From the IMG/VR virus record IMGVR_UViG_3300044732_000560, positions 1 through 31,977 of that record: 31,977 bases of DNA; one strand, written 5' to 3'. A program made the position numbers and the translations under genes. The notes under the pieces were generated by a model that saw only the letters and a list, made by a program, of their open reading frames with translations, was not told the origin of the DNA and did no database searches. This DNA is from a virus. Shown here piece after piece: positions 1-31,977 of the stretch; the first letter of the stretch is position 1; every line of letters begins with the position of its first letter.

Positions 1-127
1 TTATCTTTGACGGGTACAAATGTACACGCTTTTTTGGATAGTGCAAGTATTTACACCGATATTTTTAAAATTTAACAAATCGACTGCGTAAGTTGCCACA
101 TAGGGAAACACTATAACGCATGGCTGG
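1..127. repeat. Terminal direct repeat, left copy (contig circularises)
   Basis: These 127 bases are identical to 31851-31977. An exact repeat of this kind at both ends is what a de Bruijn assembler leaves when it walks round a circular or circularly permuted molecule, and 127 is a common maximum k-mer size. The unique genome would then be about 31,850 bp. A real short terminal repeat is less likely but not excluded. The repeat covers the divergent control region between the early (minus) and late (plus) genes, so no gene is broken at the window ends. Confidence 0.93.
34..67 (+). promoter_or_regulatory. Weak candidate rightward promoter
   Basis: A TTG at 34-36 lies 23 bases before TATTTTTA at 60-67, which is one mismatch from the Bacteroidota -7 box TAnnTTTG. 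The spacer is longer than the 19-21 bases seen in this phage's clear promoters. It is the only candidate I see for the plus-strand genes that begin near 199. It would start transcription near 73. An alternative is that these genes use a phage-specific promoter. Confidence 0.3.
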
Positions 128-2291: not shown

Positions 2292-4891
2292 TGACTAGCT
2301 ACAACTACAGCTATAACGTTCTCATCAATCGACTAGAAGCATTTGCTGCTGGTCACTTTTTGATTAAGCGATTCACACATGGTCAAATTGATTTAGCAGA
2401 TCAGTTGCAAGACGATCAATACCCATTCATGCACGTAACGCCCGATACTATCACACCTATTCAGGGTGGTATGCAGTTCGGCTTCATGATCATGTTTGCT
2501 GATATCCCACGCGACAAAGAATACAAAGCAGAATACCAGCGTGAAGTAATAAGTGATTGCGTGCGCTTAGGTCAGGACTTGATAGCTGAAGTGCGCAACG
2601 GATTGCAGCTGTTTGGATTCGATGTGCAGCTGGTAAACAACCCAACGTTTGAACCATTCATCGAAGAATACAAGAACACTGTTACAGGTGTAGCTTTCAC
2701 GATTCAATTAGAAGTACCCTGGGACTGGTCAGCGTGTGACATCCCTGCGGTGTGGACAGTAGGCGGTTCATCAAGTGGTGGAAGCGGTACAGGTTACGGC
2801 ATTACGCTACGCACGAATGGCGTAGATAACGCAGTTCAAAACATACTTGATTTAGTAGAAGGAACGAACGTAACTATCACTGATAACGGAGATGGAAGTG
2901 TTACAATAGATGCAGCAGGTGGAGGAGGTGGAGGTGGTGAATACGTTAGCACCGAATGGAACGCTAACCACACTACAGCACAGGGCAATCCGTATCAAAT
3001 CGGAGATAGGGTATGGTATAGCGGTAGCGTGTACAGATGCATAGCAAACAATGATGGTATTAACCCATCAAACCCTTCATACTGGACATTGCAAGCCGTA
3101 GGCTATCGCTTGCGTCAAACGCCCGTAGACTGGAATGCTTCAAGTGGTGACTATCAAATACTGAATAAGCCGACCATACCTGCAGCACAGGTTAATTCGG
3201 ACTGGAATAGTGTAAGTGGTGTATCGGAGATATTGAATAAACCAACTATACCAGCTGCGCAAGTAAACAGCGATTGGAACGCAGTTAGTGGTGTAGCTGA
3301 AATTTTAAACAAGCCAACTATACCGGTTAATCTTGATGACCTTGCAGATGTAAATGCACCAACGCCTAGCAATGGGCAGGTGCTAACCTACAATACTACA
3401 ACGAGCGATTGGGAAGCAGCCACACCTTCAGCGGGTGGAAGCGGAACGGTTACATCGGTAGGGCTTACTATGCCTGCACCAACTAACGCTGCATTTAGTG
3501 TAACCGGTTCACCTGTTACCACAACGGGCACGCTGGCAGTAGGGGCAAATGGCACGGTTGATCAATACATTGATGGCACAGGTGCACTACGCACGCTGCC
3601 TTCAACGGGTGGAGGTGGTGGGCAAGTATTCTACTTTAACGGAAATGTAGCGCAGCCTTCAATAGGTGGAAATGATTATTACGAATTAGGCATAGCTGCT
3701 AACACAGGGCCAGCTGCAAACTTCACACGTGCCACTACAGGTGCAATCGCTCGTTTTATTACCGATGTAGGCTCACCTAACCATGTGCTAATACCTGCAG
3801 GTGTTTGGACTATTGATGTGTATTTAAGTGAAACAGGCGGTGGTTCTAACCATGCGCAGATACTTGCTAAGCTTTACACATACAACGGCAGCACGTTCAC
3901 GCTGGTTGCTACTTCCACAATGGAAGAAATCACAAACGGCAACGTGCCTGATTTGTACACCTTCACTATTTCAGTACCTACCACAGTAACGGCTTCAACC
4001 GACAGAATACACATTGAATTCGATATTCAAAACACGAATGGTAAGACTGTTACACTTTACACTGAAGATGGGCGCATCGGTGAGGTGCATACCACTTATG
4101 CAATAGGCATCAGTTCTTTGAATGGCTTAACTGAAAGCACGCAAAACTTTGCAGTAGGTACAGCGGGCACTGACTTCGCAATCAGTAGTGCAGGAAGCAC
4201 ACACACGTTCAACCTGCCCACAGCAAGCGCAGCAAATCGTGGTGCATTGAGCAGCGCAGATTGGTCAACTTTTAATGGCAAGCAGAACGCAGTTGGATTT
4301 ACCGATGTCGGTACAGCACTGGCAACCATTCCGAACCCAAGCGCAACACGTTACATCAAAATAAATTCGAACAACTCTGTTAGCGCAATCACTGCGAGTC
4401 AATTATTAAGTGACTTAGGTATTTCGTCGAACATCATAATTAACCGCAGTTTCGCAGATACAGCAGCGGTTACAGGAACGACTGCGGTAACTTTAATTTT
4501 TAGCGTGTTAATCCCAGCGAATACTTTTCAAACAGATGACTGGATGACGACGCGACTTAATGCAAGAATCTCCGGGACAGGCGGTGCAGACTTTCGCATT
4601 TATTTAAACACATCTGCCGCAATCGGTGGAACCATTATCGGGACTTGGAACGCTGGGGTGAATTCAGCGGGTATGTTTGAGCGAAATTATATGGTAACTG
4701 CAATCGGCACTTCAGGCTCAATTAAATATGCACCTTTTGCGGGTGTTTCTCCTTATACGGCTAACAACGTGGATTTTACATCACTCACGTTCAACACCAC
4801 GATTAACCAGTATTTAGTTTTTGCAGTTCAAAATAATAATGTAGCGGGATCGTCAAGAACACATGGAAATTTAATTACAATAACACGATGA
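2291..4891 (+). CDS. Modular tail protein / receptor-binding fibre
   Basis: This 866-residue protein is mosaic. Residues 1-155 form a compact domain (LINRLEAFAAGHF, MQFGFMIMFADIPRD, VPWDWSACDIPAVW) that I take as the virion-attachment part. Gly/Ser linkers follow, ending in a run of seven Gly near 210. Around 220-270, YQIGDRVWYSGSVYRC and NPSYWTL look like a CBM5/12-type carbohydrate-binding module. Three 24-residue repeats ending in ILNKPTIP follow at about 276-346. Later segments (GTVTSVGLTMPAP, SSADWSTFNGKQNA) are typical of Bacteroidota phage fibres. The last 170 residues look beta-rich and may bind the receptor. It is coupled by TAATG to the chaperone frame and by ATGA to the next gene. 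Confidence 0.7.
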   Translation: MTSYNYSYNVLINRLEAFAAGHFLIKRFTHGQIDLADQLQDDQYPFMHVTPDTITPIQGGMQFGFMIMFADIPRDKEYKAEYQREVISDCVRLGQDLIAEVRNGLQLFGFDVQLVNNPTFEPFIEEYKNTVTGVAFTIQLEVPWDWSACDIPAVWTVGGSSSGGSGTGYGITLRTNGVDNAVQNILDLVEGTNVTITDNGDGSVTIDAAGGGGGGGEYVSTEWNANHTTAQGNPYQIGDRVWYSGSVYRCIANNDGINPSNPSYWTLQAVGYRLRQTPVDWNASSGDYQILNKPTIPAAQVNSDWNSVSGVSEILNKPTIPAAQVNSDWNAVSGVAEILNKPTIPVNLDDLADVNAPTPSNGQVLTYNTTTSDWEAATPSAGGSGTVTSVGLTMPAPTNAAFSVTGSPVTTTGTLAVGANGTVDQYIDGTGALRTLPSTGGGGGQVFYFNGNVAQPSIGGNDYYELGIAANTGPAANFTRATTGAIARFITDVGSPNHVLIPAGVWTIDVYLSETGGGSNHAQILAKLYTYNGSTFTLVATSTMEEITNGNVPDLYTFTISVPTTVTASTDRIHIEFDIQNTNGKTVTLYTEDGRIGEVHTTYAIGISSLNGLTESTQNFAVGTAGTDFAISSAGSTHTFNLPTASAANRGALSSADWSTFNGKQNAVGFTDVGTALATIPNPSATRYIKINSNNSVSAITASQLLSDLGISSNIIINRSFADTAAVTGTTAVTLIFSVLIPANTFQTDDWMTTRLNARISGTGGADFRIYLNTSAAIGGTIIGTWNAGVNSAGMFERNYMVTAIGTSGSIKYAPFAGVSPYTANNVDFTSLTFNTTINQYLVFAVQNNNVAGSSRTHGNLITITR
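3118..3330 (+). repeat. Three 24-residue repeats in the tail fibre
   Basis: The fibre contains three tandem units of the type VNSDWN(S/A)VSGV(S/A)EILNKPTIPAA; the first is more divergent (TPVDWNASSGDYQILNKPTIPAA). The period is 72 bases. Units two and three are nearly identical as protein but differ at many synonymous positions, for example AATAAACCAACT against AATAAGCCGACC. Such DNA divergence with conserved protein is common in fibre shaft repeats and limits recombination between the copies. Confidence 0.8.
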
Positions 4892-28215: not shown

Positions 28216-28932
28216 TTAGTATTCGCTTTGTGTTTCTATCAATTCGCGGTATCGTTCCTTCCGATATTCAGTAAACTGATACGGCTTGTTTTTATACACC
28301 CGGAAGCGCATGTCATTGTCCCACCTTTGCAATGCATCGTATTCATCTAATAGCATTTGCTCTAGTTCATTTGGCTTCGGTCGATTCGATTCCTGTACTG
28401 GCTGTTCCCGTATGCTCAATTTATCTGCAGCTGTCTGCATTGCTTCCATCATTTGTGGATGCTGAAACATTTCGTAGATATTATTCTGCTGCTTATTGTT
28501 TTCATTGATAGCATCGCTTATGGTTTGACGTTGCGCATCGTACAAAGGAAACCATGCAAGTATCGTAGCTGGATCAATACGATTGTATATCGTGCCGTAT
28601 TCACCTATCGCACCACGATCTAAACACAGCTGGACATCTTCGAGTGAATACATCCACATTTTTTCTAAGATGTTTTCTGCGCAGAATTCAATCTGCAGTG
28701 CGTTCATGTTATTCTGCACATTGACAAGTTGAGTACAACGTGTAACCAGCTCCATGATTTTAACCTTTGTGGTTATCCGGTCAAGTTTACGAAGCAGTGA
28801 AATCTTGTCTTGCTTCATCGCGTGCGCGACTGATAGCGACTGCATCGCGGAAAAGTGCTTCAGCTTTTGCAATGTGTTCTGCTGTTGTAGTTGGTTGTTT
28901 TGCATGTTGATTTGGTTTTTTATTTGATTCAA
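28216..28932 (-). CDS. Replication-block protein of unknown function
   Basis: This 238-residue protein starts with a Gln/Asn-rich segment, then helices (ISLLRKLDRITTKVKIMELV; LEDVQLCLDRGAIGEYG) and YNRIDPATILAWFPLYDAQRQ. The 'LEDV..C...G..GEYG..YNR.D...I..W...Y...R' part is a pattern of a protein often found beside initiator-like genes in Bacteroidota phages, possibly a primase or helicase-loading partner (inference). The start at 28932 means a 146-base overlap with the initiator gene; a later ATG at 28818 would reduce this to 32 bases and drop the low-complexity segment. Confidence 0.55.
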   Translation of the reverse strand: MNQIKNQINMQNNQLQQQNTLQKLKHFSAMQSLSVAHAMKQDKISLLRKLDRITTKVKIMELVTRCTQLVNVQNNMNALQIEFCAENILEKMWMYSLEDVQLCLDRGAIGEYGTIYNRIDPATILAWFPLYDAQRQTISDAINENNKQQNNIYEMFQHPQMMEAMQTAADKLSIREQPVQESNRPKPNELEQMLLDEYDALQRWDNDMRFRVYKNKPYQFTEYRKERYRELIETQSEY

Positions 28933-29503
28933 ATTTAGAATTATTGTTCATCCAGTTTCGAATAGCAGCTTCCCAATTTTTCATTTTGTTTTTTCCTACC
29001 ATCCAACCATTGCTTTCGTAATGATTAAAAAACGCTTTAGCTTCAGTTACTACTTTGACATCATTCCAAACATTACCAGCTAATGCATTTTTCATTTTCA
29101 TAAATTCAAATATCTCATCATACGTCGGAGCGCGAAAGCGCGACCTTGAAACATTATCATTTGGATTTACATTTTGATTATCATTCACATTAGGATTATC
29201 ATTTACATTATCATTTACATTTACATTAGCTTCAACTTTGCTTTTAGTTTGCTTCGGTTTTGCTTCTGCTTTGCTTTCGTTTTGCTTCACCTTTGCTTTA
29301 GTTCCGTTTTCGTATCGCTTTAGGTTAGCATCTAGTTGGGGCTTGATTAGGGTAAAGACAGTCTTAGCTAATCCTTTTACTTCTACTTCGTTAAAGTTTA
29401 ATGCATATTCAAAAATGGCAGAATAGACTTTAGACTGTGTTTCTGCATCAAGTTCTTTAATCGCTTCGTAAAACGATCTATAAAAGATTGTAGATTCTCT
29501 CAT
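28787..29503 (-). CDS. DUF6291-like replication initiator/organiser
   Basis: This 238-residue protein begins with FYRSFYEAIKELDAETQSKV and FEYALNFNEVEVKGLAKTVF, the start of DUF6291-type proteins, which I associate with phage replication initiation. A Lys-rich then Asn-rich linker (residues about 68-116) includes a NVNDN repeat. The C-terminal domain has PTYDEIFEFMKMKNALAGNV, then WEAAIRNWM, similar to the C-terminal domain of replisome organisers. It is the first gene after the promoter at 29610-29639 and after a structured leader. Confidence 0.65.
   Translation of the reverse strand: MRESTIFYRSFYEAIKELDAETQSKVYSAIFEYALNFNEVEVKGLAKTVFTLIKPQLDANLKRYENGTKAKVKQNESKAEAKPKQTKSKVEANVNVNDNVNDNPNVNDNQNVNPNDNVSRSRFRAPTYDEIFEFMKMKNALAGNVWNDVKVVTEAKAFFNHYESNGWMVGKNKMKNWEAAIRNWMNNNSKFESNKKPNQHAKQPTTTAEHIAKAEALFRDAVAISRARDEARQDFTAS
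29145..29234 (-). repeat. AT-rich tandem repeats inside initiator gene
   Basis: The coding strand has repeated AATGTAAATGAT units (12 bases), interrupted by short variants and encoding NVND steps. The stretch is AT-rich and lies in the disordered linker of the initiator. In lambdoid phages the origin lies inside the initiator gene as iterons, so this could be the replication origin. A plain low-complexity linker is the null explanation. Confidence 0.5.
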
Positions 29504-29605
29504 AAACTAAATACCCACCACTACACACAAAGGCTCGTCCGCGCACGAAAGTGCTATGGCAATGCGGTAGTGATGGGATTTAAAAATGTTTTCATTCGAA
29601 CGAGC
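29504..29605 (-). ncRNA. Structured leader RNA with interlocking helices
   Basis: The leader between promoter and initiator ATG can form helix 1 of 9 bp (29597-29605 with 29533-29541) and helix 2 of 11 bp (29567-29577 with 29514-29524). Their order 1-2-1'-2' makes an H-type pseudoknot or two alternative folds. Local hairpins also occur: GCAC-TTTC-GTGC (29543-29554) and AATG-AAAA-CATT. Each long helix has a single non-Watson-Crick pair. It is G-U in minus-strand RNA but would be A-C in plus-strand RNA, so selection seems to act on the transcribed strand. It may control initiator translation or act in replication. Confidence 0.6.
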
Positions 29606-29609
29606 GTTG

Positions 29610-29639
29610 CAAATATAGTCAAACTATATCTACTTCCAA
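29610..29639 (-). promoter_or_regulatory. Early promoter of replication block
   Basis: On the minus strand, TTG (29637-29639 reversed), 19 bases, TATATTTG (29610-29617 reversed) match the consensus exactly. Transcription would start near 29604, just before the structured leader. ATATAG-TCAAA-CTATAT (29613-29629), a perfect inverted repeat, overlaps the -7 box and spacer and is a likely operator. Confidence 0.85.
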
Positions 29640-30052
29640 ATAATTGTTGCGACTAAAAAACCAATTGCAGCACCAACAGCCATGATCAAAAACATTTTGC
29701 TGTTGCTATTATCGCAGATAGGTTCTTCATGCACCGGTGCTGGCTGTGTGCGCTCAACACGTTTGATGGGTGTAAGCTTCATCTGCTGCGTACCTGCTTT
29801 GCTTTGTGCATTAGCAATACGCGATTCCTTTAGGCATTCTTTAGCAAATGCCACAGCAATAGCTTGCGTAGGCTTGTCACCTATCCAGCGTGTCACATTG
29901 CCATCGCGCTTAATCATGTTGTGTTCGCGCATCAGCGTAATCAATCGCGCACCTACACGATACTCATTGCGCATTTGTTTGATGTCAAATTCTTTCGCGT
30001 CATGTAATACGCACATGAATTCGTAATACTTGCTTTTTGTGTTTTTTCTCAT
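29630..30052 (-). CDS. Membrane-anchored protein with N-terminal HTH-like part
   Basis: This 140-residue protein begins RKNTKSKYYEFMCVLHDAKE and FDIKQMRNEYRVGARLITLMREHNMIKRDGN, a winged-helix-like pattern. A polar Pro-rich linker (VERTQPAPVHEEP) follows, and the C-terminus is a single transmembrane helix (FLIMAVGAAIGFLVATIIW). A DNA-binding head tied to the membrane could anchor phage DNA or act as regulator; both are inference. Start overlaps the nuclease gene by 4 bases. Confidence 0.55.
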   Translation of the reverse strand: MRKNTKSKYYEFMCVLHDAKEFDIKQMRNEYRVGARLITLMREHNMIKRDGNVTRWIGDKPTQAIAVAFAKECLKESRIANAQSKAGTQQMKLTPIKRVERTQPAPVHEEPICDNSNSKMFLIMAVGAAIGFLVATIIWK

Positions 30053-31850: not shown

Positions 31851-31977
31851 TTATCTTTGACGGGTACAAATGTACACGCTTTTTTGGATAGTGCAAGTAT
31901 TTACACCGATATTTTTAAAATTTAACAAATCGACTGCGTAAGTTGCCACATAGGGAAACACTATAACGCATGGCTGG
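31851..31977. repeat. Terminal direct repeat, right copy
   Basis: Exact copy of 1-127. It carries the first early promoter and its palindrome, which appear in the window twice but exist once in a circular genome. Confidence 0.93.
31864..31896 (-). promoter_or_regulatory. First early promoter with overlapping operator
   Basis: On the minus strand, TTG (31894-31896 reversed), 19 bases, TACATTTG (31867-31874 reversed) match the Bacteroidota consensus. The perfect inverted repeat GTACA-AA-TGTAC (31864-31875) covers the -7 box, so a bound repressor would block it. Duplicate positions are 14-46. It drives the genes from 31834 leftward. Confidence 0.85.

Follow-up and report, generated by a model that had tools for sequence, protein, structure and literature searches.

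A putative 5'-terminal pseudoknot leader RNA at the head of a replication-type operon in Bacteroidota phages

Results

The window, meaning the whole 31,977-nt stretch of DNA analysed (IMG/VR record IMGVR_UViG_3300044732_000560), carries an exact 127-bp direct terminal repeat (window 1-127 and 31851-31977) and, because of this repeat, seems to be a complete phage genome, circular-mapping and ~31.85 kb long. Judged by its terminase (43% identity), Flavobacterium phage 11b is the nearest cultured relative. The leader described here is present in one copy in this genome and lies on the minus strand between a 140-aa gene (29630-30052) and the gene of a 238-aa DUF6291 protein (28787-29503; PF19808, Pfam E 1.7e-19). 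The DUF6291 protein matches phrog_15768 and gives a weak DnaD-like match (E 0.029), and a role as replication initiator is plausible but unproven. Its AlphaFold2 model has a pTM of 0.33, and comparison of this pTM 0.33 model with the PDB produced no match. DUF6291 is rare in bacterial genomes (4/396), and full-text literature searches found no paper on it.

The leader is preceded by a promoter of the Bacteroidota sigma-A type, for which a consensus of the TTTG / TAnnTTTG kind has been described (PMC7366714, PMC9723704). The -33 box TTTG (29637-29640, minus strand) lies inside the final codons of the 140-aa gene upstream, and the -7 box TATATTTG (29610-29617, minus strand) follows it after 19 nt, in agreement with the consensus TTTG-N19-TAnnTTTG. 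In Flavobacterium psychrophilum the TAnnTTTG element occupies -12 to -5 (PMC9723704), and on this basis the transcript of the window is predicted to start at 29605, the first base of helix P1. The gap between the TTTG of the -7 box and the first G of P1 is exactly 4 nt in 93/94 leaders, with variable letters, the 94th leader being cut off at a contig end.

A consensus promoter followed by a leader with a 9-bp and an 11-bp helix whose strands alternate had been claimed in a preliminary description of this DNA, and every part of that outline is present on the minus strand. The 5' strand of P1, GCUCGUUCG (29597-29605), makes up nucleotides 1-9 of the predicted transcript and pairs with CGGACGAGC (29533-29541) to give 9 bp with one U-G (29605-29597 with 29541-29533). 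Loop L1 (29578-29596) contains AUGAAA, at which a 13-codon leader ORF (MKTFLNPITTALP, then a stop) might begin. The 5' strand of P2 (29563-29577) consists of an 11-nt part, CCCAUCACUAC (29577-29567), and a further 4 nt; its 3' strand (29514-29529) has a bulged U at 29525 and an 11-nt part, GUAGUGGUGGG (29524-29514). The 11-nt parts form 11 bp with one U-G (29577-29567 with 29524-29514), and four more pairs beyond the bulged U (29566-29563 with 29529-29526), missed in the preliminary description, bring P2 to 15 bp in total. Between the P2 5' strand and the P1 3' strand there is a 4-bp hairpin, P3 (GCAC-UUUC-GUGC, 29543-29554), and between P2 and the start codon a U-rich stretch, UAUUUAGUUU (29504-29513), so that the ATG at 29503 lies 10 nt past the end of P2. 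All of these elements are on the minus strand.

Estimated energies are -13.6 kcal/mol for P1, -22.4 for P2 and -3.5 for P3. The helices are not a product of chance: the folding z-score of the window leader is -3.98, better than all 200 shuffles, and its pseudoknot score is the highest among 1,594 segments taken from both strands of the same genome. The strand order 1-2-1'-2', with both helices conserved, is consistent with an H-type pseudoknot. The two helices had been suggested either to form together as a pseudoknot or to exclude each other as a switch. The pseudoknot half of this suggestion stands, while mutual exclusion is not supported because no nucleotide belongs to both P1 and P2 and the two helices have each been preserved. 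An upstream promoter, a downstream gene on the same strand and covarying helices together fit a structured cis-acting leader. An HDV-like ribozyme, which has a similar strand order, was rejected, as the stretch from P1' to P2' has no space to hold a P4/J4-2 core.

Together, proteins related to DUF6291 and a pattern-based scan of DNA yielded 103 leaders, 94 of them distinct, and related leaders are present in ~100 other phages, with the pairing kept and the letters changed. Standard pairs occupy 99.9% of the 2,596 pair cells of P1, P2 and P3 in the 94 distinct leaders, compared with a baseline of 82% in shuffles and 29-49% after sliding by 1-3 columns, and 0/500 shuffles match the observed pairing or covariation score. 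Both sides have changed in 17 of the 28 pairs. P1, which exists in 15 sequence types, is 99.9% paired, with double changes in 7/9 pairs, and is paired 9/9 in every complete leader except one (8/9); P2 is 100% paired over its 15 pairs, six of which show double changes; and P3 has double changes in 4/4 pairs. Rather than losing both helices, then, the homologues retain them. P1 was not built into the alignments, one (A2) being retrieved by a model of P2 and P3 only and the other (A1) being a plain MAFFT alignment, and covariation is likewise seen in a 26-sequence alignment. At several helix positions U-G alternates with C-G or U-A across the homologues, and therefore the gene strand (minus) is the selected strand, as the preliminary description had supposed from the G-U positions of the single sequence; an RNA on the plus strand is ruled out, since many of the U-G pairs would turn into A-C. 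The case made there for an RNA function of the gene strand is thus strengthened by covariation in 94 leaders, and a covarying family of transcribed leader RNAs, as indicated by the helices and their evolution, is well supported.

A variant of this leader, which we call the kissing type, occurs in more distant phages and at two bacterial-genome loci (L223, L224). In its plan, the loop of a 5'-terminal hairpin pairs (6-8 bp) with the apical loop of a terminator hairpin that carries a U-tail, within a total length of 72-87 nt. In 15/15 distant leaders checked, the 5' part pairs over 6-8 nt with a hairpin loop, and the hairpin ends in U residues. In eight related kissing-type leaders 98.6% of cells are paired, a count biased towards structure by hand-picking of the strands, and double changes, which as letter changes are present in the sequences themselves, occur in 19/27 pairs. 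For the distant DUF6291 leaders the interleaved-helix score was reached by 0-2/400 shuffles in most; L041 and L242 are not significant individually, and L042, L231, L232, L234 and L251 are intermediate. On close inspection the majority of these distant leaders belong to the kissing type. Among control regions upstream of other genes, 1/99 scored >=18, and this one was a second leader copy. A promoter-anchored scan retrieved further kissing-type leaders, some of them likely chance hits, including L223 and L224 and others ahead of different first genes (L065, L052). Two leaders (L041, L046) resemble intermediates between the types, their P1 lying on the predicted +1. Features shared by the two types are the promoter, the pairing of a 5' segment with the apical region of a strong hairpin, and U-rich sequence directly after that hairpin.

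The leader occupies a characteristic position in the genome. Towards the terminase, VRR-NUC and the 140-aa gene usually come first, followed by the leader, the replication-type gene and one more conserved gene. Three alternative families fill the replication-type slot: DUF6291, a DUF1376-like family (starting KDPAFLFY) and a family starting KNNGY/KINGY. Small genes, a GIY-YIG gene, a DUF4326 gene or a 751-aa SNF2-methyltransferase may be inserted between leader and replication gene. A first count that placed the leader ahead of ten unrelated genes was discarded as a sign of varied context, as these genes are merely inserted before the replication gene and leave the operon unchanged. One leader (L098) is identical to that of the window over its full length and has a 71-aa gene as its first gene. 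Gene order thus indicates that the leader heads the same operon whatever its first gene and is not a DUF6291-specific site. An initiator binding site, one of the functions suggested earlier, is accordingly hard to maintain: genes are swapped behind the same leader, in one case a full-length identical one, and it precedes three alternative replication-type families, so that an initiator-specific site is not supported and autoregulation by the initiator is rejected. Neither does the leader look like part of an origin, as had also been considered, for it can occur twice per genome, once on each side of a methyltransferase insertion, and its covariation is that of an RNA; a search for iterons in the leader region found only chance repeats. 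As a side observation, three replication-type proteins with different N-terminal parts seem to substitute for one another at this one locus (the first genes of L129, L130 and L151, and window 28787-29503), and they appear to have a C-terminal motif in common (like MKDWxAxVRNWM). One contig (L015) retains only the 3' part of the leader; at ~2830-3000 of it the leader has apparently recombined, leaving P1' and P2' behind a methyltransferase-like coding end.

The SNF2-methyltransferase accompanies an additional leader copy in L002, L014, L030, L109 and L117/L207, where another leader, whose P1 is of a different type, lies downstream of the methyltransferase gene. Could the leader then act in trans, as a small RNA released by termination that uses its 5' segment to pair with a loop in a second molecule? 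Intermolecular pairing would yield the same covariation, and the two copies differ in P1 type in 5/5 contigs. Chance alone would give such an outcome in roughly half of cases, however, and it is not significant, and an intramolecular partner is always available 50-70 nt away; we regard a trans-acting or multimeric RNA as highly improbable.

Discussion

What might a leader RNA of this kind do at the head of an early replication operon? In its spacer after P2, T accounts for 68% of the first 8 nt (103 leaders), unlike in the start context of the 35 other genes of the window, which has 23% T and 46% A at -12 to -1. A stable hairpin with a direct U-tract and a positive terminator score is found in most kissing-type and some window-type leaders. 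Attenuation is favoured because the U-rich spacer is unlike the A-rich starts and because relatives have terminator-type hairpins, and we propose, with a probability of about 0.5, that the leader is a transcription attenuator that would tune read-through into the operon. As a cis-acting RNA with its own promoter, beginning at P1, it would pair its extreme 5' end with a segment within the apical region of P2, the long hairpin, and so form a 5'-terminal pseudoknot. P2 and the U-tract would halt or slow RNA polymerase ahead of the operon. Because P1 is complete before the 3' strand of P2 is made, the pairing between 5' end and P2 loop would form earlier and may alter the speed or quality of P2 closing, which in turn would set the fraction of read-through, perhaps under the influence of a phage or host factor. 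Several features speak against an attenuator. The terminator-type score of the U-tract of the window is -5.7, under the usual terminator threshold, as are those of L055, L072 and L241; P1 is not a classical antiterminator, as it has no overlap with P2; and in three genomes (L031, L033, L034) the DUF6291 gene stands directly behind VRR-NUC and has no leader.

The main rival to attenuation is translational gating, in which the folded pseudoknot would block or admit the ribosome and be unfolded by a ligand, a protein or translation of the ORF that starts at AUGAAA. In most leaders of the window type, 10-12 nt separate the end of P2 from the start codon, a distance that clusters in this range ahead of many different first genes and also suits translational control, and positions from ~-20 to +20 tend to be unpaired at Flavobacterium starts (PMC6847099). 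AUGAAA is found between P1 and P2 in 93/94 leaders despite variable surroundings, often with a stop just past the P2 5' strand. Most kissing-type leaders, by contrast, have their start codon ~20-28 nt past P2 in an open A-rich context, and several of them have no AUG at the AUGAAA position. The ORF is found in all three frames, with 4 to 29 codons, and its peptide sequence varies. This variation in frame, length and sequence also led us to reject a coding leader peptide, or leader-peptide attenuator, in spite of the conserved AUGAAA. On balance we consider translational gating unlikely.

The position of P1 at the predicted +1 in window-type leaders, and of 5' hairpins that begin within a few nucleotides of +1 in most kissing-type leaders, would also be expected of a 5'-end stabiliser, a P1 helix that takes up the first transcribed base and thereby shields either the mRNA of the operon or a small RNA produced by termination against 5'-end-dependent decay. 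A precedent is a pseudoknot reported elsewhere as an mRNA stabiliser in work cited in PMC9373788. A plain 5' hairpin would suffice for this purpose, and stabilisation leaves both the pairing with a terminator-like loop and the U-tail unexplained, which makes it a distinctly unlikely function. Processive antitermination, where the folded leader would bind the elongating polymerase so that later terminators are ignored, has its model in the put RNA of phage HK022, which is likewise a short structured RNA near the promoter of an early-type operon (PMC9378689). The put RNA consists of two simple stem-loops that contact RNA polymerase, with no pairing to a terminator loop (PMC9378689); the secondary structure of our leaders differs from this, and in most leaders of the kissing type the 3' hairpin is a terminator-type hairpin itself. 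We think this mode of action very unlikely. The late leader of phage lambda at PR'-tR' is comparable in so far as it, like put, is a short RNA between a phage promoter and its operon that acts on termination, although PR' depends on the Q protein.

The attenuator reading places the leader beside terminator-type attenuators and riboswitch expression platforms, with which it shares the succession of promoter, structured leader, hairpin with U-tract (a weak one in the window) and first gene. Unlike in those systems, there is no overlapping antiterminator here, and the terminator loop pairs with the 5' end of the same RNA. Nor do the two leader types have in common an invariant core resembling the ligand pocket of a riboswitch. 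The pseudoknot leader ahead of the repZ replication gene of IncI-type plasmids is also associated with a small leader ORF, and there the pseudoknot activates translation under the control of an antisense RNA; the phage leaders differ in having no conserved leader peptide. The SAM-II riboswitch is likewise an H-type pseudoknot leader, and some SAM-II examples are followed by terminators (PMC9373788), but the phage leader has no Rfam match, differs in sequence, loops and gene context, and has no metabolite gene nearby. The STAXI motif is another pseudoknot motif found near genes for DNA-handling proteins (PMC2864571); it is small and tandemly repeated, whereas the phage leader is single, 5'-terminal and larger.

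Taking both types together, it is possible, and we put it forward tentatively, that a class of RNAs widespread in Bacteroidota phages and prophages uses contact between the nascent 5' end and a terminator loop to decide whether polymerase enters the operon, and so might serve as a self-contained timer. The 5' end would then take part either bare or as a hairpin loop, and the pairing sequences could perhaps change freely. Gene timing in Bacteroidota phages is little understood, and the leader family offers a concrete and testable candidate for an RNA switch: its architecture is compact (~75-105 nt) and modular, it heads the replication operon and outlasts swaps of the replication protein, and it links the 5' end of the transcript to a terminator-like loop.

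Comparison with Rfam 15 covariance models gave no relevant match to the window leader up to E 10 and none to the leaders up to E 1 at 12 loci with distant leaders, and no description of the RNA was found in the papers searched. The family is apparently undescribed, which agrees with the earlier suggestion of a new leader class, and at least one well-supported class of phage RNA is missing from common RNA libraries. Known RNAs were also met in the phage contigs: a Type II hammerhead ribozyme at L055:1473-1550 that exceeds the Rfam gathering score (41.4 vs 37), and a DUF805b RNA motif, likewise over its gathering score, at L041:2087-2119.
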